This document shows positions 532 to 56,992 of a stretch of DNA of 64,000 bases, one piece after another; position 1 is the stretch's first letter, and every line of letters starts with the position of its first letter. Location: assembly GCF_000203815.1 (NCBI RefSeq), contig NW_004457737.1:62001-126000 (forward strand). Direction: 5' to 3'. The DNA is from Cavenderia fasciculata. Its lineage: Eukaryota; Evosea; Eumycetozoa; Acytosteliales; Cavenderiaceae. A model generated the notes under the pieces. The model saw only the letters and a program-made list of their open reading frames with translations, searched no databases and had not been told where the DNA came from. The position numbers and the translations under genes are program-made.

Positions 532-1468
532 TGGCAATGAATAGTATGTTGTTGATGAATTGTTTCCGGAACCCTCACTAGAGGTATAATGGGTTGGGAG
601 ATCATCACCCTCCATTCCCCTTCCAGCCATGTTGTTGCATATTTGAAGTTTGCATAGTATTTTGTATATAGTGTTTGAAATAGTTTTTATAAATGGCCTT
701 TTATATATTCAGGGAGAGAGAATTAATCTTTGATTATTATTATTACTTATTACTTTAAAGTACATACTGTAATGGTTCAGGAAAGAAAGTGGCAAAAGAA
801 AATGATTCATTTCTATCACCCCTAACATTTTCCCTTCCTTTTCGTTGGTAGAATCTTAGATAAATCCAAGATACAATGGTTCCAAATATGACAAAATGAG
901 AAGATCTTGAATAGAGACCAATAACCATAAAAACCAATGTAATCAAAACATAGATTGATGGCAAATGCTAAATACATTATTTAAACAATGATTAATAAAT
1001 CTAGATTGTGTGTTGTTGCCGTTGGTTAAATCCAAGTATAACTATACCTTTGCACGAATATTAACACCAAAAAAGATAGGAATTATTTGCTCTGGGAATA
1101 ATTGTTTAAGAACAACAGTAAATCCAGCAATAACTCCACTAAATCCACAACTATTGGCTTCATATCTATAGTAAATTGGGGATCAATATTGAGTTAGCTT
1201 TTCGGTTATTTAAAATTAAAGTTTCTACAATCATATTTTTCCTCCCAAGGTACTTACAAAACACTAGATTGACCAGTAATAGAGTAATAAAAGATAAAAT
1301 ATAAAAATACACATAGTCCAGAGAATATATTTACAATCGATATGAATTTCATAAACTCTGTACTTCCCCAAATAGGTTCAAATTGTTTACCAAATATCAT
1401 TAATAATATAATATTCAAAATACCCTAAAGTGTAACAACAATTTTTAGTGATTTGAAAATGTGTAGTA

Positions 1469-1517
<49 letters not shown>

Positions 1518-1959
1518 AAAACATACACCAATGATTGAATAGTCATAGAATCCAGCAGTAAATAGAGTCCAAAGCTTAAATTCTGGTGGTCCAACTCTAT
1601 TGGTGGTCAATATCAAACATATGGTTAGTAACAATAGTAACGATTAATAGATATATATATATCTTGCTTAATTTTTACCTAGCAGCATTTAATGCAAAGA
1701 ATGGTGAAGTATATTGATAAAAGAATACACCCAAAAATAAGAATACACCTAATATAGCTCCTATAGTTTTAGATAATCTTGGTACATCTTTAATCCATCC
1801 TCCATCCTGTAGGTGTAGAGGAGGGGTAGTATTGCAATGAATAATAATAATAATGACTACATTAATATTATAAACAATGATGATATAGTACTTTTGTATG
1901 AATTGATTACTTACAATAGAAGGATAAGTTCTTGTTGACTGGGATGATTGTTCTGACAT
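334..1959 (-). CDS. tmem115: TMEM115-like rhomboid-related Golgi membrane protein
   Basis: Transmembrane protein of the TMEM115 (DUF1751) family, which has a rhomboid-like fold without protease activity and works in the Golgi. Exons read on the minus strand: 1959-1915, 1806-1679, 1596 to about 1527, about 1424-1258, about 1167 to 1050, about 970-768 and 697-334. Several hydrophobic segments fill the middle exons. The landmark FATFFPEPLQ is followed across the intron 767-698 by PFIKTISNTIY and KLQICNN, matching the family's FATFFPE...VKICR region. The last exon ends with the family's C-terminal signature DRRRALAMKTLEERM, after a Gln run. The first ATG (1959) gives MSEQSSQS. The final exon could be mistaken for a separate 98-residue gene, but splice phase and family order join it here. 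The third intron holds a long CT repeat. Confidence 0.85.
1471..1516. repeat. (CT)23 microsatellite inside an intron
   Basis: An uninterrupted CT dinucleotide run of about 23 units. On the minus strand it reads as (AG)n and lies inside an intron of the TMEM115-like gene, shortly downstream of the GTATGT donor. Confidence 0.95.
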
Positions 1960-2118
1960 GTTGTAACACTTTAAACAATGAATTCTCTATCTATCTATTA
2001 ATTTCTTCTCTCTCTGAAGTAATAAATTAAAATTAATTTAATTTCGGTGAGTCATTTTGCTTGTTCATTAAAAACAAAAGATCAATAATTATTCTATATA
2101 CTTTATTATTCTTGTCAA

Positions 2119-5100
2119 ATGTTACATTTAAATAAAAGATTACCTTTGTTGTCTAGATATTCTTCTAGTTTCTTCAAAGGTAGTAACAATAACAACAACG
2201 TTAATATCATTAGCAACAACAATCATTTCACTTTCAAACCAACATCATCATCAACATCTATTTCACTGGTCAACGCAATCAGTAGTAACAATATTGGATT
2301 ATCATCAAATCAACATCTTTGTTATTTTTCTAGCAACAATAACAATAACAACAATAATAACAATAACAATAACAATAACAATAATAATAATAATAACAAA
2401 AAGAATGATAAGAAAATTGATGAAATAACATCATTAGATAATGAATCTGTAGAAGCATTAATTAAATTTGACAAGACAACAAAAAAAAGTAAGAGACTAT
2501 TAAATGTAGTTAGTTATATTCATTGCAATGATTTTATAACTTTGCAAACTAATCAATTTTCTATTGTTATTATCTTATAGATCCATTATTTCCAGCAAAT
2601 AGTGAAGTATTAATTTATCCAACTGTTGGAGTATATTTTACTGGAACTGTTGGTAGCATTTCATTATCAAACAAATTCATAGATAGATTGGTACCAAACA
2701 CAAGTGGACACTTATTCATTGGTTTATTCTTGATAAAAGATGAATTCAAATCTCTCATCACTCCAGTGAGTGGGCCATTGACACAAGGCAACAGAAAATA
2801 CGTTCACAATGTTGGTGTACTCGCTCAAATATCGATCACTTCTCAAATGGGTGCTCAATTTATCGTACGTCAAAGAATAGAAATTGATCAACAAGACCTG
2901 AAATCGGGAGCACCATTCTTTTTCAAGATTAAGGAATTTGGTGATCAAGAACCACTCCTCCTCTCAAATCATCAACTGTCACCATCTCATTTGCCACAAA
3001 AATTGGGTTCCCCATCATCGTCGTCATCGGCATCCATTTTCGATCAAATCACCTCTGATATTAAAGAAGAGGAGGAAGAAGAAGCTAATTCTACTGAAAA
3101 AGAGGCAAAGGAGACAGACGAAGATTCAGAGAAAAGAGTAGAAAAAGAAAAAAAAGTCTCTGAATTGATTAAACAAATCTCAAAGCAAGCTCAAAACTAT
3201 ACTAAAGACTATCCTGGTGTATTTACTAGCAATGGAATGGAGTATCCATCACTACAGGCATTGGAAAGTCAACCAGAACTCTTCCTCTCTTCAATAATCA
3301 ACATGTTTGTCCTCAACTACCCAGATAAATGCCAAAGGATACTTGAAACACTCGGTATCGTTGACCGTTTGCAGTTGGTATTCGATCTTTTAATCGATGA
3401 GGAGGCTTTATTGTCCGAGCAAAGTAAAATCTATCAGAAATTTGAAGATGAAATGGTAAAGAATGAAGGAAAGCTTTTCCTCAACGAACAACTAAAATTA
3501 ATTAAAAACAATTGGGCGTTGAATATGATGAAAAGGAACAGACTGTACAAAAATATTGGAAAAAGTTGGCTCTTTTAAAAATACCAGATGGTCCAAAAAA
3601 GATTATTGAAGATGAAATTGTATGTTTAAACATAAAATATAAAATATATAATATATATCTTCTAACAATCCTTTTTTTTTTTTTTAGAATAAATTATCAA
3701 CAATTGATCCTTCATCATTAGAATATAACTCTTCACGAAATTACTTGGATTGGTTAACAAATTTACCATGGTTGACCTATACACCAGAGTTTTTTGATCT
3801 CCAATATTCAAAACAAGTACTCGATCAAGATCACTATGGTTTAACAGATATCAAACAAAGAATATTGGAATTTATTTCAATTGGTCATATTAAAGGATCG
3901 GTACAAGGAAAGATTATTTGTTTTGTTGGTCCACCAGGAACAGGTAAAACATCGATTGCCAAATCAATTGCCAATTGTTTAAAGAGAGAATTTTACAGAT
4001 TCTCTGTTGGTGGTCTCTTTGATGAGGGAGAAATTAAAGGACACCGAAGAACCTACATAGGATCAATGCCAGGTAAATTGATTCAATGTATGAAGTTGGT
4101 CAAAAGTTCAAACCCTGTCATCCTTATCGATGAAATTGACAAGATTGGCAAGAGAAACTTGGGTGATCCATCATCGGCATTGTTGGAGGTATTGGATCCA
4201 GAACAAAACGTTTCATTTATCGACAACTATCTAGATGTACCATACGATCTATCTAGGGTTTTGTTTATCTGCACTGCCAACAGTGATCAAACAATCCCAG
4301 GTCCATTGTTTGATCGTATGGAAGTAATCTATCTTTCTGGTTATGTAGAAGAGGAACAAATTCAAATTGTCACCAATTTTATCATCCCAAAGACACTTGT
4401 AGAGTGTGGTATCAAACAGGAACAACTCAAGATCGATGCAGACGTTGTCAAGATGCTTGTCAAGTTTTATAGCAGAGAAGTTGGAATTCGTGAGCTCGAG
4501 CGATTGATTGAGCGTATTATGAGAAAGGCTGCACTCAAAATCGTCAATGGAGCTGAATCAATTCACGTCACAAATGACAACATCGAAGAGTATCTAGGTA
4601 TTCCAACTTACTCATCGGATCGATACTATGATGTCACACCAGTAGGTGTAGTTAATGGTTTGGCTTGGTCTGCACGTGGTGGTTCAACTCTATACATTGA
4701 AACTATTGTAGAGAAATCAAAACAACAAGAAACTATTCAAGATGATGTGGAAGAGGCAACTATTATCGATAATAATAATAATAATAATAGTGGCGATAAA
4801 CCAACTGTTGTACAACCATCCTCTCCGTCATCGCAACCATCTGGATTCGTACCAAGACTACGTACAACAGGTAAATTGGGAGATGTAATGACAGAGAGTA
4901 CAAACATTGCCTACACTTTTGCCAAAAACTTTTTAGCCCAAATAGATCCGACCAATCAATTCTTTGAAAATCATTCTTTACATATGCATGCACCTCAAGG
5001 TGGTATTCCCAAGGATGGTCCATCAGCAGGTGTAACCATGGTAACATCACTCATATCTCTTGCATTGAATGAACCCGTACTCAATAATCTTGGAATGACA

Positions 5101-46510: not shown

Positions 46511-47220
46511 ATGAACCTGCTGCTTTTTTTATTAAAGACATACATTAAATTGGGTCAGTCGACTTTGCACCTTCTTAAGATGCTTTTTCCCAAAAGCCAA
46601 TTTGAACTTTCAGCTGAAGTTTTCAAGACCTTTGTTTTCGACCTTTACAAATGGCCCTCATTAATTAGGGGCAAAGTATAAGAGTACTCATCTCTCTCTC
46701 TTTGACCTCATTCAATACAATAAATAAATAAATTGAATATTTATTTTCTTTGGGGTTTTGAAAATTTTTGGTTGGGAGTGCCGCCTCAGAATCTATTTAT
46801 TGGTAAAACTTATTTCTCTCTATGGTCTTCTTTATTTTTAATTATTCTTTTACCAATCGATAGATCTTTTCATTATCTATCAAATGGTTGCCAAAAAAAT
46901 TTGCGAGAGGTTCACCCTGCTAAAAAGTACTTTCCGTAAGGTCGCCTTTAGCCATGGGCTAAGATGAGGTCTAGAAAGCATTGTTTGGAAAAATAAATGA
47001 TATAAACAGAAAGAGCACAAAAAGTTGTATCTATTGGTGATATTGGATCGTCGTTTCAAAGATTATTCAAATAAAAAAAATGCTATTCTTCAAAGCCTAT
47101 CTCATAGTACTATTGTGCGGGCTAACCATATAAAACTACGTGCTACATGGATCGATACCTTTTGGATCACGATTAATCAAATAAAAAGACAAGCACCAAC
47201 ACAAGAGGTGTAGGTGCCTT
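46511..47220 (+). pseudogene. Possible decayed coding remnant, family unknown
   Basis: Three short non-repetitive frames follow one another on the plus strand. The first is 46511-46681 (56 codons from ATG, with GQSTLHLLKMLFPKSQFE and VFDLYKWPS). The second is about 46733-46939 (LWGFENFWLGVPPQNLF, no ATG at its start). The third is about 47025-47213 (MYLLVILDRRFKDYSN, RATWIDTFWITINQIK). None of the three is homopolymeric, and local composition is richer in C and G than the surrounding desert. No introns link them convincingly. They could be a degraded gene or DNA transposon beside the Fanzor gene, or chance. I recognise no domain. Confidence 0.3.
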
Positions 47221-47849
47221 GAATCTTCAACATTATATGCACTGGTGTCGGCAGTGTTCAATGCATGCCACATCCAGCAACGCTAGACAAGATGGTTAGT
47301 ATATTTGGAATGGATCAATAATCAAATAATTCAGAAGTGGTCAATCTCAAAACAATTGTGAACGCTCAAGAGTAATGGTAGCTTAATCTCATATATCGAT
47401 ATCATGGTTATTTATTTGGTACATACTAGTATTATTGTAATTGGCTCTTTTAAAACCCATCAAGGCTAGTGGTCATGGACAATTTCGCATTCGGTCTATC
47501 AAAACCATCCATTCTAAAAGATAATAAATAATAATTAGTAAACAGTATTTATGACAGTAATTTTACAAGATACATATCTTTACAGTTTTTAAAAATGGAC
47601 CAACTCGTCTCTAATCAATTGATTCTATATTTAAAGTACCAATATATACAGACTTGTTATAGATTTAAAATAAAAAACCCATCATCAAGAAAGAAAACAC
47701 ATACAATCTTTATGAAAGAAGAAATTGACGACCAATCAACTTTGCCCTCACGCGGTAAACAAATGGCCTTGTTTGGAAACTTATGAATATACCTACCGAA
47801 ACAAACCCTACAAGCAGAGGTTCTAAGAAGTTTGAGCATGTCTAAACAT

Positions 47850-48610
47850 GGAAGAACCCACACATCACTATCATTACTCCTCTTTTACACCATTTCTTTT
47901 TGATTATCTTTTGTTTTCATTGGTTTACCAATCAATGCACCACCCATCTCTTTCCTTTTAACTACTCATTGTTGGCCAAGTTCATCTTTACATATCATTG
48001 ACCTCTTGTGTTCACTCATAAATTATATAATCCTTTTTGATCCAAATCAAGTACCAATCTACACTACCACTCTTTATCGCTCTGCATCCTTTTTGTTGTT
48101 CGTTTGATCCACTCTCCTATCCGACAAACTTTCTTTACCACTTAACTTTCCATCAGATACTGCAATCAATCACTACCATTGCTCCTCTTTTACCCTTTCT
48201 TGTTTTGATTATATTTGTTTTTATTATCGAGATGCACCACCCATCTAACCACTCGCCTCATTGTTGGTCCCAGTCTATTTCATTCTCTTCCTAATTGTGC
48301 ACCAACCAAACACATCGCCCAACTTTTATCATTTGTTTTGTTTGGTCAATGATAAGTGTAATCATCAACACCTTTTTCAAATACCATGCATGGTCTGTTC
48401 ACCAAGCTATACACTACTTGGCCATCTCTTATTTTTTATTTGCTCTTTGTTCAAAATAACCACACCCTTTTGTTTGTTAGTTTGATTCACGGTAACTTTC
48501 TTTATCACTTATCTTTCCATCAGATCGATAATGCAAAACATCACAATCATTGCTTTTACACCATTTCTTTTTTGTTTTCATTATCCAATCAACGCATCCC
48601 TATCTCTTTT
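47850..48610. repeat. Three diverged direct repeats just upstream of the Fanzor gene
   Basis: Related blocks start near 47857, 48168 and 48541. Each has ATCAC then ATTGCT/ACTCC then CTTTTACACC, TTTCTTTTTGATTAT, TTTTCATTATC and CACCCATCT-like segments. Two of the units end with the same phrase, ACTTTCTTTA(C/T)CACTTA then CTTTCCATCAGAT (about 48127-48158 and 48492-48524). Unit spacing is about 310-370 bp. The copies are clearly diverged. They may be the promoter side or left end of the Fanzor locus. Confidence 0.6.
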
Positions 48611-48699
48611 GCCTGCTCTCTCTATGCAGTGACAGACCTGTCAAACCTTTTTTTTTTAATTTTAAACCTCTCTAACATTTATTACATTTATCATTATAG

Positions 48700-51600
48700 A
48701 TCATAATTTGGAATGTGAAAAGAAAAGGTTAAAATTAAAAGAGGAAAGAGAGGCCAAGCAAAATCAAGAGCCAGCCATTCCCAAGGAAAAAAAAAAGAAG
48801 AAACAGTTTTTGGGTGACAAAAGGCCTGAAAACTTTGATGAAATCAATTTTGATGGATCTGTTTATTCAATATCAAATTTGGCCACAGATTTAGAGATTG
48901 ATAGCAAAAATGTAAAGAAATTAAAGGTTGAAGAACATATATCTGGTGATTATTTACAATCTGAACTCTCATCAAAGTTGGAAGCGTTGATCCAATCATC
49001 AACATCAATAAGTGCCTGGAGTGGGTTAAATACCCTCCAATTGAATAGATTGAAAATGCTAAATTTGGAAAATATAATTAATCCGTAACTATTATTATTA
49101 TTATTTCTTTTGTTATTTTTTATTATTATTATCATTAAATTAACTAATCAAATGCTTTTTTTGTAATCTTATTTTTTTTTCTATAGAGAGGACAATTCAA
49201 TCGATTTTTCAAAGTTGACAAAAGATCAATATCCATCTTTAATGGATTTTTGTGAATCAAATGGATACAAGTTTCCAAAAGGATATGACCCTACAGGATT
49301 GAAATCCCTCATGACGTCCGATTTGGAGACGATAAAAACTACTCCTTTCGCATTGAATAGCTTTGCACCACAAGCAAAGTATGTATAAAACAATTGACCA
49401 ATATCTTTTTTTTTATATTTTTAAAACTAATCCTCTTTTTTATCTATAGATTCAACAGTACTTTTATCCCATTCTCGATAGAGTTGTTTGTCAGTATAAT
49501 CGTCAACTCTGGAATAGATATGTCCCTTGGTTTGACCGACAAACACAAAATATTAAGGTATATTTCAAAAATATTACCTAATTTGGAAAAAGAAATTGGT
49601 CATCCATTGGAAAGTGGCTATCCATTGGATAGATTTAAGTTTTTCGACAAGGAAATTGAGATCCTCAAAGCTTCGCACTTGGCTTCTTTTCCTTCATCGT
49701 CAGATGTAACAATATCACCATCCTCTTCGTCTGATGTAACAACATCACCATCCTCTTTGTCTGATGTAACAATATCACCATCCTCTTCGTCTGATACAAC
49801 AACATCACCATCCTCTTCGTCTGATACAACTACATCTCCATCCTCATCATCAAAAAAAAAAAGAGGTAGAACTCGTAGTGAGATTGTGGATATAAAGTTA
49901 GAAAAATTCCCTGATTTTAAAGATTTTAAATTGGAGGATCTTAATCGACAATTGGAACTTAGAGATATCGAATCCCCAAACATTGATACACAAGTCCAAG
50001 AAGAGGAAAATATTAAAAGATTGAAATTGGTTTTATGGCAAGACATGGTAAAACGCTTGCAAATAGATTTTATAGAAGACTTTGACTACAGCAAATCCAG
50101 TCAAGTTAGCATTTTAAAATGGTTATCTTTACCTACTAGCACTATTAAAATCGAATATGATTGGTACTGCTGTTCATTGCCAACACTGAAAGCAACTCTC
50201 AAGAAACTATTCAATGACAGCCCAAAGGTGAAGAGAAATGGGCCAAGGAAATGGATGCCAAAGTCTCTTGCTTCAACAAAAAAATCGTTTCTTTTTCGTT
50301 ACTATACGATTGGATTTGTTGGAAAATCAGTCCTCTGCGATTATTTGCAATCACCGTATGTAAAAGACAACCCATTCGATTTCAACGGGTCAACAAAAAC
50401 AATTCACCCCAACTTTAATGATTACGAAAGAGACAATATTGGTTACATTTATAACCAAAAAATGTCGGTCCTAATCAATCAAAGGGCGATGATGGTGACA
50501 ACCAACGTTCCCAGCCATATCTGGTTCCAAACAAAAAGTAAATGTCATTGTTTTAAAGCATTATTATCTTTTACGACCCATTCATTTTACTAATATTTAA
50601 TTTTAATCTTTATATAGGTGCAAATGAAAAAGTAGTTTCTGATGTGCAAATATCCATGAATTGCCGTCTCTTGCCATACCATTTGAAAAAGAGACAAAAA
50701 CTAGAAGAATCTTTTCCAGAGCAAAGTTTGGTCTCTCAAAAAAACGGTCAAGATGGCACACCCATGGATGATTCCGATGATGATGATTATGAATCATGGA
50801 AATGTAAACAAGTAGAAGAAATGGAAAAGAACCATTCATATTCATACAACCATCCCCACTATGCTTGTTTTGTGGCAAAACAAGTTGGGTTGAAACCAAA
50901 CATTCCCAAAGTCAAGGATAGAGATATTATCTGTGCCAATTGTTTGTCATCCCACTCACTTAAAGATTTGCCTATGGTGTGCGAACAATGTGATACGACC
51001 ATTCCTATTCTATCGGAACATGAAAAAAGATTGGATTTATGTGGTGACCTGATGGATCTGTACTCGGTTGATATTCAACTAAAAAGGAATGCATTTGAAA
51101 AAATGCCACCCTTTGATTCAAAGGATGATCAATTCCCTCCACCAGTACCATTAATTGCCGAAATCAATCATCGACTCGTCAAATTTGACCAACCTGAGTC
51201 ACCCCACGTGGAGATTTTTCTACACGAGGCTCTCAACACCACCTCGATAGCACTCAACAGTAACAGGTCAGGAATTGCACCCTCCATGCGGAACCTATTC
51301 AATCTTATTAAAACTACATCCGATCCCTCGATGCAATTTAGAATTCGTGATGCATATCCCTTTGTCCACGACTCGTCTACTGGCGGATTTGAAAATGAAA
51401 TCAAACATGAAATCATGGTGAAGGAATTAATGAACCATTTTTCAATGACAACGTCCAAGCTCATTATTGTTTGTGGACAATTCCCTTGCAAGGCAGCCAA
51501 AGAGGCTTTTAATGCCAATCCTTTGGATTACGAAATGGTTGACTATAGTCAAGAATCTTATCACACCATTTTAGATAAAGCCAAAGGCACAACCGAGGAC

Positions 51601-54474
51601 AAAGAGGTGGATGTAAGTAGGATAGTTCCTAAAAGGCTCATTGCTATCGCTCCGCATCCATCAGTCATGTTTGCGTTGCACATAACAGCAGCCTATATTT
51701 TGATTGCTCATGATATCTACAAAATGGCTCCAAAGGTATCTCAATTTGACCCAGTTCAAACATTTAAATCGAATTCCCCCTCGTCTGCCTCGTCCTCCTT
51801 CTCCTCCACGTCCTTATCATCCACGTCATCTTCATCATCTGCCTCGTCTTCCTCGTCTGCCTTGCCCCCGTCCTCCTCGTCCTCCTCCACGTCCTTATCA
51901 TCCACGTCATCCTCATCATCTGCCTCGTCTTCCTCGTCGTCCTTATCATCCACCTCATCTTCATCATCCTCCTCTTCGTCCTCCAATCAAAAGACCACCA
52001 AACGCCCAAATCTAAGTAACAAAACAAAAGATTTTCCTTCACTTAAACAATGGACGTTGGAACATCTAGTTGAAGAGGCCACATCCCGCAAAATCGACGT
52101 AGAGAATATCAAAGAAGATCGTCTTCAAGTTGAATGTGTTTTGTTGAAATCGGTCCTTGGGTTTCAAATATGGTCAGAACAAAAAATTGAACAGTTTGAT
52201 CTAGAGGAATCAAAATCGAAAAAAGATATACTGGCCTATGCGAGAGAAAAAAAAATCCCTTTGACAGACTATTGGTTCTTCATGACGTTGGAAACCCTCA
52301 AAAAAGCCGTGCAAAGGTGTCTCGCTTCCACCTCGTCCCCATCTCCGTCCTCCTACTTGCCCACCTCTTCCTCACCCTTGACCGATATCTCACTCCCCTC
52401 TTCCCCATCCTTGACCGATGCCCCACCCACTTCATCCTCATCCGATACCTCAACTCCACCCTCTTCCACCGATACCTCATCCTTGACCGATACCTCAACC
52501 ACCCCGTCCTCATCCGATACCCCACCCTCTTCCACCGATACCTCATCCTTGACCTATACCTCACTCCCCTCACACTCATTCTCCTACTCCTCCTACTCTA
52601 AACCTTTTGTAAAAAATGAAAAGTGCGTTTACAAAGATGAAGAGAAACATATAAGAGCAAAGAGAGATTTTTATCACTCTGGAATGTGTAGAAGGCGCCG
52701 AAGCAAATGGAAAGTTATGAGGGAAAACAACCGTGGCAATTATCTTTATATCGGAATTGATCCTGGAAGGTCAAAATGCACGATTGTAGACTCTATGAAT
52801 CGTGCTCGAGTGGTTTCAGTGGCATCTTATTACAACCTCATGGGCACTGACCGTCTTCTGGCAAGACAACAAAACTACAAAAAGAACCCGGTCCTGTCCA
52901 AATTTGAAAGTGGATTGCCAACCTATAATACCTTTGGTAAGTGTTATTTTAAATATTCATTGTCTATACCACCTATATATTATAATATTAATATTTATAA
53001 ACTAACTTTTTTTTTAATTCCTAGATACTTTATTCAATGTAGAATCTGTATTGAGACGAATAGAGTATGAAAGAATTACCCATAGGGATCAATGTCGTCT
53101 TTATTCCCATGTAGTGACGTCCTATACGTTTCAGACCATGGACAAGAACAGGAACATTGACAAGAAGCGCGCCCAATATGCCTATGCAAAGAGCTTTGTA
53201 CCACCAACAACAATCCCGAAAAATAGAATAGTGATTTGTATGTTTTTTTTATTTCTTCAAACCATTTATTATTATTTGTTATTAATCTTCTTTCTTTTTA
53301 TAGATATTGGAGGGTCTGATTTTTTCCGTGGATCCCGAGGTGGTGGTAGAACTGGTTGTACATCAAAGACACTACTCAGACTGTTTTTGAATATGGGTTA
53401 CAAGGCACGTCTTGTCAATGAATTTAATACCTCCAAAGTATGTGTGTTTTAATAATTGAATTTTTAGATCAACCCTCGAAATGGCCATTCATTAATATTT
53501 TTTTTTCCAAGATTCATAATGCATGTGCCTCCAAAATTCATTCTACCAACAACAACAAGTTCCTAGAAAAAGCTAAACACCAAAAGGTTAAAAATGTGTT
53601 GCCAGAATCTTTTGAAAAGACCCATGTTGTTGGTGCACCCATATCCTCCACGTTTTCAGACAATGGTGTTCGTTGGCAAGGAAAGGATTCCAAGTTATGT
53701 GATGGTTGCAAATTGACTGATTACAATTGTCAATGCTCCAAGGCTCAATTGGCGGACAAAGAGAATGATTCAACTCTGAAAGTGTCTCAATTGGCAGATG
53801 ATATGAATGAAACTCTAAAAGTATTCATATCACTTGAAAATACTTCACCCTCTCCAACTATGCTATTGGAATCCCTTTTCTCTTTAAGCAAAAAGACTGT
53901 CAAGGAGTTGATAGAGTTTTGCAATCTAAACTCTATCAAATACTATCAACAAGAAGAGCCAACCAAAGGGAAAAACAAAAGAGGTTCTCACAAGGATAGT
54001 AAGGGTGGTGCTACCAACAGCAAAAAGGACCAACTTATCAACGCTATCATCAAGTTTAATTTTGAAAAACAAAAAAGGGATGCTAGCAAAAATAAGAAAA
54101 AGAGGTCAAAATCGTCATCAACTACTAATGATCGTTGTAAGGACCTAGATCAAAGCAATAGTCAAAAGGATGGGAACAAGTCTACAAGCAACTCTGTTTC
54201 GACCCACGATTATGGTTTTGGTAAGTCTCTTTGTGATAGTCAGATCAAAGATCTCTGGAAGTCAAAGAACCCAAATGCGACAGAAATGCCATTTAAAACT
54301 AAATGGCAATGGCTATATTGTCCAGTTTGTGATCATTTCTTCAACAGAGACTCGAGCGCTGCAAAGAATATTCTCTTATTGGGAATCTTACACCAAACCG
54401 CAGATTACAGGCCATGGATTTATCGTCCTTTACCTGCCGATATCGTGCATATTGGGAGGGTAGACACGACCTAG
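48700..54474 (+). CDS. Fanzor: eukaryotic TnpB-like RNA-guided nuclease, giant form
   Basis: Homologue of Fanzor, the eukaryotic relative of TnpB/Cas12 nucleases that cut DNA under RNA guidance. Seven exons join in phase: 48700-49084, 49187-49378, 49450-50537, 50618-52936, 53025-53237, 53304-53437, 53512-54474, about 1,764 residues. The first ATG exon lies upstream of 48700 and is not identified. The split RuvC has all acidic residues: Asp1270 in YIGIDPGR (52759), Glu1439 in VNEFNTSK (53420) and Asp1724 in CPVCDHFFNRDSSAAKNI (54349). N-terminal to RuvC lie a CANC...CEQC zinc-ribbon-like motif (50937-50990), Ser-rich arrays, and SAP-like segments such as SKKDILAYAREKKIPLTD. Between RuvC-II and RuvC-III is an insert with CDGC and another SAP-like segment. 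Usual Fanzors are roughly 600-700 residues. No recombinase gene or clear terminal repeats are seen. It could be a domesticated host gene or an old mobile element. Confidence 0.85.
49690..49850 (+). repeat. 30-bp coding tandem repeat in the Fanzor gene
   Basis: About five copies of a 30-bp unit encode the decapeptide SSSSDVTTSP and variants (Ile, Leu and Thr substitutions). Copies are nearly identical at the DNA level, which suggests recent expansion or homogenisation. Confidence 0.85.
51770..51990 (+). repeat. Pyrimidine-rich Ser-coding repeat in the Fanzor gene
   Basis: Imperfect repeats of a TCC/TCG/TCA/TCT phrase encode long Ser runs broken by Ala, Thr, Leu and Phe. The plus strand is almost pure pyrimidine apart from scattered A and G. 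The block TCCACGTCCTTATCATCCACGTC-like phrase recurs at about 51806 and 51887. It lies just before the SAP-like region. Confidence 0.8.
52320..52585 (+). repeat. Ser/Thr/Pro-coding repeat array in the Fanzor gene
   Basis: Tandem phrases encode SSTDTSSLTDTS and PSSSDTPP variants, repeated three to five times, ending just before the RuvC-I half of the protein (KPFVKNEKCVYKDEEKH). The plus strand is C-rich, unlike the rest of the window. Confidence 0.8.
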
Positions 54475-54823
54475 TTAACCTTAACAGGGCCTTCCTGCAT
54501 AAATATGAAAGTCCCCCCCCCCCAGCTGTAAGTTATTAGATAGAAAATATAATGTTGATCTCAATTTACTGATTTTCCCCTTTTTTTCTGTACTTTGTCT
54601 TTTTTTTTTACTTTGTCTGTTTTTTTTTTCTTTCCTCAATTCAAAATAAAAGTTCAAATTTAGATCTTTCGTAACACACAATATATTGATGGGGTCAATC
54701 AAACGGCCTGCTGCTTTGCCCAGATCTCTTTTTAGATATTTATGTTTTTTTAGTAATATTATTATAATTATTTGGAAACACATGTACATGTACATACACC
54801 AAGCCGCCAATCGATTATTTTAA
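54475..54823. other. 3' flank of the Fanzor gene, convergent with the MYND gene
   Basis: Directly at the stop codon there is a 12-bp inverted repeat, GTTAACCTTAAC (54474-54485). A run of 11 C residues follows at 54513-54523, then AT-rich DNA with two phrases of ACTTTGTCT followed by T tracts (about 54593-54630). In other Fanzor loci the guide RNA comes from the 3' end of the gene and its flank, so this is where to look. The sequence alone does not prove an RNA. Confidence 0.35.
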
Positions 54824-56992
54824 TTATAATTGAGATTGTTGAGGTTGTTTATTATTTAGATAATAAGTTTGTAGTGATGGAGCCATGGAACTTATAGTAA
54901 TGGGTGGAGAACATTTATCGCGATGACCATCGTGAAACCATGATTCTTTTTGACAAGCCTTGGAACAATAGACAACTGCTTTGCAACCAGAACACAACAG
55001 TGGTTTCATGAGTGTCTGTTTGCACTGATGACACCTGTACAATTGAAGACCTACATAACAATCTCCTTCACCTCTTCCTATCTTTTCACCTGATGGATTG
55101 TAATTGGATGGAGTCTTGTTGTTGTTGCCAGATAAATCATCCATGATCAATTTGTTGAGTAGTTCTTGTTGTTGTTTACTACTTTGTTGTGTATCTTTGA
55201 TGGCATGGGGTATCTGTTGAACAGTCTTTAGATTGTTGATGTGATAGCCAATCATTTTCAATGATTTTGTGAATTGGGTCGATTGGTCCTTTTGGTCGAG
55301 TACTCGCTTCCAATCGATCGGTTCAGAGTTTTTAGGAGTCAGTGTGATGAGATAGATATTGTAGTGTCCAATCAACAGACGGTGGTATCTTCCCAATTGA
55401 ATATAGTTGGAACATGTTGTCATGTCGTCCACACCACCATTTGTAAATATGACACCTGTCGACGATGATACAATCTCGTGTATTCCAACTCCTCGGTGTA
55501 AAATACTCGGAACAAATCCATTACCAAAAAACAGCGACTCTGTCCACTTTGCAACTAATCCTTCGAGTGATTCAAGTTGTTTGGTAGACATTAATTGACT
55601 CCATGGTAGTGTAGCTAGTTGTTGCTGTTGAGAAGAATCGGTGGCTGATGCTGTTGGTTGTTGTTGCTCTGTACTCGTTGCAATATACGATGATATCGTT
55701 TGTACACCTATACCATTCAACATTTGATTTTGTTGATCTGGAAACTCCTTCCTAACAACCGTCATGATACTATCACCCTTGGGAGAAAAGATCATATCAA
55801 TAATCCAACTCTGTGGTGTACTCTCCCAATATATTTGAGTTGTACTTGTAGTCGTCACAGATCGATCATTTCCACCAGTATTGTGGTGATGGGAGGATGA
55901 AGAAGGATGTTTACTGATGGTCGTTGTAGTGGTAGTGGTTGTACTACCTCCATTGGAAGTTGTAGTAGTGGTTGTTGTAGTGGTTGTGGTAGTGGTGGAT
56001 GGGTCACCAGAGAGGTAGCCATTGCTAGTAGTTTGTCTACTCTTGTTGTTGATTGATCTAGTCGACCATTCATACTTTAGCAGAGGATACTGTCTCTGTG
56101 GAGAACTCTCCTTTTGCAATCCCCAAAAACAATATTCACCCAATGCATCATCGTTCCAAGTCACATATTCAAAGCATTCAATACGGTCTGCTTTGTTTGG
56201 ACATGGTTGAGGATTAGAAGCTATATGAGTATGATTATATGGTGCTCCAGTTAAACTCTTGGCAGGTCCAACAATTGCCAATGGTCCAAATTTTCTTGGT
56301 TCAAAACATACTAAACTATTATTATTATTACTATTATTATTTGAATGGTTCTTGTTTTTGTCAGTAGTAGAAGTAGAAGAGGTCGCAGTAGCAGGAGCAG
56401 GTGTTGTACTAGTAGCTGAAGGTGTAGTAGTAGTAGTAGTACTAGGAGAAGATGAAGTTGAAGGGGATGTAGCAGCAGTAGTAGTATTATCCGAAGTAGA
56501 AGAAGCACCAGCAAAATGAAAAGTATGATTCACATGATGATTAAAAGTCATCTGAGAAAGATAAGATCCCATCATTTGTTCTTGTTGTTGTTGCTGTTGT
56601 TGTCTTTGTTGTTGTTGTTGGAAATACTTTATAGCATCTTGTGATAGCTTTTTAGTTGGTGATAGGTATGGCAATTGCAACATAAAGAGATAATTGGAGA
56701 ATCTTGACAAGATACATGCCAACATTTGTGAATCTGATGAAAAACAAGCATCTACAAATGCCAAACTAGCATCATAATAGATTAATTCAAAATAATCTGG
56801 TCCTTCATCTTTGATACGATATCTACAACAAAAAAAAAGAGAATAAACATTAATTTTATGACAAAATGAGTAGGATGATGAGATTTACATACACTGTTAG
56901 ACATTTTAAACCTTTATGATAACAACCAATCAATAGTAATAGTCTCTTGTCATGACTTAGTAATACCTTTTTGGTCTTTTAAAATACTTTGG

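Follow-up and report, generated by a model that had tools for sequence, protein, structure and literature searches.

The window, the whole stretch of 64,000 nucleotides of the Cavenderia fasciculata genome that was analysed, contains a copy of a transposon that carries a Fanzor-type gene. The copy has inverted ends and near-identical relatives dispersed through the genome, in which a transposase remnant persists and of which one keeps an unbroken frame of 2,015 aa; exons 1-3 of the gene are lost here. The features are listed below, with position 1 as the first letter of the window.

46735..54655, no strand assigned: whole transposon copy of ~7.9 kb (full-length relatives ~10.8-12 kb), set by homology limits and aligned ends
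46735..46747, plus strand: left terminal inverted repeat GAATATTTATTTT, from the end alignment, preceded by AATT at 46731-46734
46748..47808, no strand assigned: left 1 kb, common to several element families of the genome according to the homology search
47808..47855, minus strand: deletion junction, containing 43-48 bp of filler in inverted orientation whose sequence matches the transposase remnant that is missing here
48700..49084, plus strand: Fanzor exon, read from the sequence as exon 4 of the ten-exon model based on the copy on contig C10, coding for DHNLEC...
49187..49378, plus strand: Fanzor exon
49450..50537, plus strand: Fanzor exon of the N-terminal region, with a ~100-aa module that is apparently repeated at 52030-52320
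50618..52936, plus strand: long Fanzor exon with a C4 zinc-finger-like motif (from 50923), the conserved domain, Ser-rich linkers and RuvC-I
51136..51765, plus strand: conserved domain of 210 aa within the N-terminal region, 61% against the diverged family
53025..53237, plus strand: Fanzor exon
53304..53437, plus strand: Fanzor exon with the alternative RuvC-II Glu (VNEFNTSK, 53420-53422)
53512..54474, plus strand: last Fanzor exon, with an insertion containing an extra CxxC (CDGC), CPVC...NRD, the RuvC-III Asp (54349-54351) and TAG
54643..54655, minus strand: right terminal inverted repeat, inward GAACTTTTATTTT, identical to the left end at 11/13 positions and followed by AAAT at 54656-54659

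A preliminary description of this DNA had proposed that seven exons splice in phase into about 1,764 residues, and this model was confirmed. GT-AG introns of 66-102 bp, with splice sites taken from the sequence, join the exons from 48700 to 54474, and the frame is free of stops from 48700 up to the TAG at 54472-54474. Extended back to the preceding stop at 48666 it would comprise 1,775 residues, and there is no Met near its start. The description had also reported an ordered signature with Asp, Glu and Asp kept, which we recovered both in the window and in a diverged family on contigs C18 and C4. In the window protein, the motifs follow each other as IDPG, VNEFNTS and CPVC...NRD, with the catalytic codons at 52759-52761 (Asp), 53420-53422 (Glu) and 54349-54351 (Asp). 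This order exceeds chance, because the exons recur in nine more copies and the diverged family keeps both exon order and motifs. A Ser/Thr/Pro-rich stretch lies immediately N-terminal of RuvC-I.

The protein was further held against the published definitions of Fanzors. According to PMC10711439, the fingerprint consists of DPG and an alternative Glu near a zinc finger; both DPG and this Glu are present in the window, and the Glu does not stand six residues before a zinc finger. The pattern given in PMC3627910 is D-X(125,275)-[TS][TS]-XX-[C4 zinc finger]-X(5,50)-RD. Here, the spacing from D to TS is 171, inside the range of the pattern, and CPVC...RD is present, whereas CxxC does not immediately follow the TS motif, CDGC being found ~65 residues further. 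The C18/C4 and DFa-2-like families also have no CxxC right after TS, as far as their exon ends are readable. The last 502 residues of the window protein reached 16.2 bits with PF07282 (last exon alone 13.3), below the cut-off of 26.3, and a match over this cut-off is not demanded by the Fanzor papers. The homologous copy L001 of the same genome scored 26.1 bits and, together with its neighbours, 26.4, which passes the cut-off; as a 100-aa piece it just missed it with 25.7. The window protein was linked by search to L001 (E 2.2e-4) and to DFa-2-like copies (E about 8e-6). No match was obtained in a PDB search with pieces of the RuvC core (best E 1), and no REC/WED part of an ordinary Fanzor1 was recognised in the window protein. 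The label Fanzor1, as opposed to Fanzor2, follows the naming of the DFa families in PMC3627910.

The earlier view of an unusually large Fanzor-type RuvC protein was thus supported, the relative with all exons having 2,015 aa compared with the 600-700 aa of the majority of Fanzor1 proteins (PMC11423790). By description, the Asp-Glu-Asp RuvC core is like that of SpuFz1, GtFz1 and PpFz1, which have 600-700 aa (PMC10432273, PMC11423790). Also by description, the family differs from these three in the size of the C10 copy, in which ~1,500 residues precede the RuvC-I Asp, in the distance of ~275 residues from the Glu to the last CxxC (CPVC), and in the REC/WED part, which was not recognised. PpFz1 itself has an insertion of ~100 aa in RuvC, so such insertions occur (PMC10432273, PMC11423790).

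Flank searches showed that homology to the dispersed copies begins at about 46735 and ends at about 54655. The left 1 kb is 92-97% identical to most of its longer matches and 85% to one, and this region is also found beside DFa-2-like Fanzors on contigs C2, C3 and C14. The anchor motif was present in 17 of 22 left ends examined, and AAAT precedes all 16 of those other than the window's. AAAT also follows 12 of 12 right ends examined, the window's among them, and each of the nine other copies examined at both ends has it on either side. The window copy itself has unequal 4-bp flanks, with AATT on the left and AAAT on the right. In the C18/C4 family, AAAT follows both right ends, and one base of the repeat is changed.

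A search of the 31-Mb genome with the 210-aa domain returned 13 matches, namely ten copies at 99-100%, located on seven contigs, two matches at 60% and one weak fragment of 43 residues. The RuvC search returned at least 72 matches, which included the same ten near-identical copies (the window's among them), several partial ones and diverged families. When scored exon by exon, the nine further copies reached 92-96%, on a scale on which the window's own copy has 94-96%. In nine of these ten, the long exon stays open for 837-847 residues; in the remaining one it is shorter (633).

Relative to the reference copy L038 on contig C14, the window lacks 3,552 bp (1430-4981 of the reference) between positions 47808 and 47849. 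The filler at this junction matches C1:109808-109855 on the minus strand with 100% identity over 48 bp, its 43-bp core being 47809-47851. The deleted stretch contains a transposase remnant on the minus strand and three Fanzor exons with the start codon on the plus strand; the 5'-exon stretch is retained in nine of ten copies, and the window copy is the only one to have lost it. Thus, the window gene has no start codon because the 3.55-kb deletion took the first three exons, and no transposase lies beside it because little is left here of a remnant that was defective already. With the 5' exons and the start lost, the window copy most likely makes no functional protein. The C10 copy, one of the other nine, was modelled with ten exons and 2,015 residues without an internal stop; residues 240-2015 of this model align with the window protein at 98.5%. 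In the C14 reference copy (L038/L039), the frame itself is broken.

The transposase is present as a remnant exon in L038 and as a long ORF in the related element L060. In L060 (C14:1964600-1972210), a DFa-2-like element, a frame of 478 residues is open on the minus strand at 1700-3133, at the position where the window family has its transposase remnant. This ORF probably represents a portion of the 888-aa Sola2 transposase described in print, and 3213-3638 is likely to be an N-terminal exon of it; a Pfam search of the ORF gave no match, and the Sola2 identity is taken from PMC3627910. On contig C3 (1823762-1834489), the left part of the giant-Fanzor family is represented by ~4.5 kb, and a DFa-2-like Fanzor tail follows 6 kb downstream. 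This is possibly a chimera, as if the families exchange Fanzor parts.

The group to which the element belongs has been known since 2013, when Bao & Jurka described three Sola2-type Fanzor1 families, DFa-1, DFa-2 and DFa-3, in Dictyostelium (Cavenderia) fasciculatum (PMC3627910). According to this source, they have ends of 12-13 bp, AWWT duplications and a common 5' part of 2.5-3 kb with differing Fanzor parts, and in DFa-1 and DFa-3 the Sola2 transposase is mostly deleted. By description, the window element agrees with them in species, ends, target site duplication and common 5' part, and apparently in its deleted transposase: it has 13-bp terminal inverted repeats matching at 11 of 13 positions, other copies are flanked by AAAT, and its 5' part is common to families with different Fanzor parts. 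It would correspond to DFa-1 or DFa-3, and it differs from the DFa elements in the additional deletion of 3.55 kb. PPa-1, 4 and 5, Sola2-Fanzor elements of the related slime mould Polysphondylium pallidum, have the same chimeric plan and a 4-bp AT-rich target site duplication; they differ by description in their imperfect ends of 21 bp (PMC3627910), compared with 13 bp in the window element. The main-text parts of PMC3627910 give neither size nor domain description for the DFa Fanzors. Within the collection of papers searched, this was the only one found on Fanzor together with Dictyostelium or Sola2, and the main text of three later Fanzor papers contains no word beginning with Dictyostel-. 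It is the size of the protein and its long conserved front part that are unusual.

The sequence comparison with the C18 element indicates that this front part is genuine coding sequence, because the second family keeps the exon order and replacement changes are fewer than silent ones. Identity between C18 and the window family is 31-74% by piece. Of the 5' exons of C18, exons 1 and 2 were picked out by visual inspection of the ORF list, and exon 3 was aligned (47%). In the comparisons of the window family with C18, pN was below pS, with silent changes saturated in several pieces. In the front part, pS and pN were 0.764 and 0.348 for 5' exon 3 of the C10 copy, 0.812 and 0.445 for the exon at 48700, 0.744 and 0.342 for exon 49450-50537, 0.723 and 0.334 for 50860-51135, and 0.704 and 0.253 for the 210-aa domain (51136-51765). 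The module at 52030-52320 was the least constrained (0.708 and 0.454). The corresponding values were 0.537 and 0.242 for the RuvC-I part, 0.574 and 0.128 for the exon at 53025, and 0.479 and 0.243 for the last exon. The ~100-residue module is apparently duplicated, with cross matches at E 1e-8 to 3e-9 that were obtained with the low-complexity filter off and are in part attributable to Ser-rich stretches. By eye, the front part also has a SAP-like character.

Profile searches of the N-terminal part gave no family above cut-off. For the 210-aa domain, carbonic anhydrase was a weak lead: PF00484 reached 20.5 bits in the C18 domain only, below the cut-off of 25.7, and a carbonic anhydrase chain was found in the PDB at E 0.58. 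Nothing better was obtained for this domain or the N-terminal part in NCBIfam, PHROGs and PDB. PF21827 matched a low-complexity N-terminal stretch with 19.5 bits (cut-off 31). A uracil-DNA glycosylase had been suspected by eye in 51136-51765, from GIAPSMRNL, IIVCGQFPCKAA and IAPHPSVM compared with E. coli Ung, and was not supported. In local hhalign, Ung scored 15.3 over 12 columns, compared with a median of 13.4 and a top score of 21.7 in 200 column shuffles and 14.7 for the reversed alignment; in global mode, 26 unrelated columns gave 6.4, a score that 5 of 120 shuffles attained as well. Hmmsearch gave 0.1 and -1.4 bits. Of 1000 shuffles made for each, 715 and 699 received a score, and 51 and 201 of these did at least as well. 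The profiles compared were small (two sequences for the query, eight for Ung), and these scores are still compatible with a distant kinship. In the host genome, L069 (C12, around 1072996-1073451) contains a diverged uracil-glycosylase-like frame with 24.9 bits to PF03167, and three loci match this profile more strongly (L066, L067 and L068).

No relatives of the 210-aa domain were found in viral contigs (tblastn, 166 pattern matches). Among public proteins, only DFA_06309 and DFA_09740 were found, both hypothetical proteins of C. fasciculata, in a search narrowed by length limits and Ser-rich words. The DFA_06309 gene model seems to fuse two pieces, namely the left part of an element copy with a deletion on contig C2 and the Fanzor tail, and that of DFA_09740 omits the first exons. 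At L064 (C1:1676000-1680500, minus strand, 1998-2492), a fragment that includes VEIWVNEPLNTSSIAMNEDRS is 48% identical to the 210-aa domain over 43 residues; this part of C1 had no match in the RuvC search of the genome.

TnpB helps its transposon persist. Other Fanzors are known to cut DNA under RNA guidance, and aid to transposon persistence has been proposed for Fanzors (PMC10432273). We read the feature, with a rough probability of 0.82, as an internally deleted, 5'-truncated, non-autonomous copy of a Sola2-type DNA transposon with a giant Fanzor1 as cargo, a reading that includes the following steps. Related DFa-2-like elements would supply the transposase that mobilises the non-autonomous element in trans, and giant Fanzors with all exons would act as RNA-guided nucleases like other Fanzors and TnpBs. 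After excision, the Fanzor would cut the empty donor site beside AWWT, and repair would copy the element back. The deletion with its inverted filler in the window copy may then be the scar of an interrupted gap repair. Several observations weigh against this reading: a guide RNA signal was looked for at the right end and not found, PF07282 stays under its cut-off in the window protein, the REC/WED part was not recognised and a Ser/Thr/Pro-rich stretch precedes RuvC-I, and the two 4-bp flanks of this copy are unequal.

The preliminary description had taken the open frame as a sign of selection, which applies to the family, where pN is below pS, but not to the window copy, in which the 5' exons are missing and 7 synonymous and 16 replacement changes separate it from the C10 copy over 1,763 codons. 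It had also noted that no transposase is adjacent and had seen in this a hint of domestication; the first part stands, and the hint does not, the remnant having been mostly deleted here. A Fanzor that left transposition and now serves the amoeba would fit the open frame of 1,764 codons and the lack of an adjoining transposase ORF. However, the gene sits in a transposon copy that has inverted ends and is nearly identical to nine others dispersed in the genome, it has neither start codon nor first three exons, and its changes relative to the C10 copy are mostly replacements, which makes a host role extremely improbable. It is very unlikely, too, that the N-terminal exons form a separate gene and that the Fanzor consists of the last four exons only. 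This division would agree with the N-terminal part having no family above cut-off and with the shortened public model DFA_09740, but the C10 copy reads through all ten exons, the C18/C4 family keeps their order, the long exon covers both N-terminal sequence and RuvC-I with no intron between them, and pN is below pS in the N-terminal part as well as in the Fanzor part.

The right end of the element bears on a further alternative, namely that the Fanzor is the transposon's RuvC nuclease or binding protein and is no longer RNA-guided. The right end folded no better than shuffled sequences (z +1.1 for 54475-54660 and z -0.1 for 54400-54530), and an Rfam search of it gave no match. The unrecognised REC/WED region and the displaced first CxxC of the zinc ribbon point in the same direction as this lack of a structured RNA. 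Against it, the three catalytic residues and the fingerprint of DPG and alternative Glu are kept in two families, and the fold test is weak because the length of Fanzor guide RNAs varies considerably between species (PMC11423790). We consider the loss of RNA guidance rather unlikely.

Under the preferred reading of a transposon with a giant Fanzor1 as cargo, the front part and the Fanzor core might, as a tentative proposal that we hold to be possible rather than probable, form a new architecture in copies with all exons. The front part would add either DNA binding or another enzyme activity to the RNA-guided RuvC core and could do some of the transposition work of the lost transposase. If so, a Fanzor of 2,015 aa would combine ~1,500 residues under purifying selection in two families with a split zinc ribbon, a 210-aa orphan domain and a 100-residue module present in duplicate. 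A Fanzor family of three times the usual size, with a conserved front part and copies that dispersed recently, is a natural system for testing extra domains in a eukaryotic RNA-guided nuclease, and its location on a transposon with a broken transposase allows its role in element retention to be asked directly. Beyond the right end of the element, an adjoining frame on the minus strand (54824-56884 of the window) contains a MYND-like zinc finger, named by eye (CHQCKQTLMKPLLCSGCKAVVYCSKAC).
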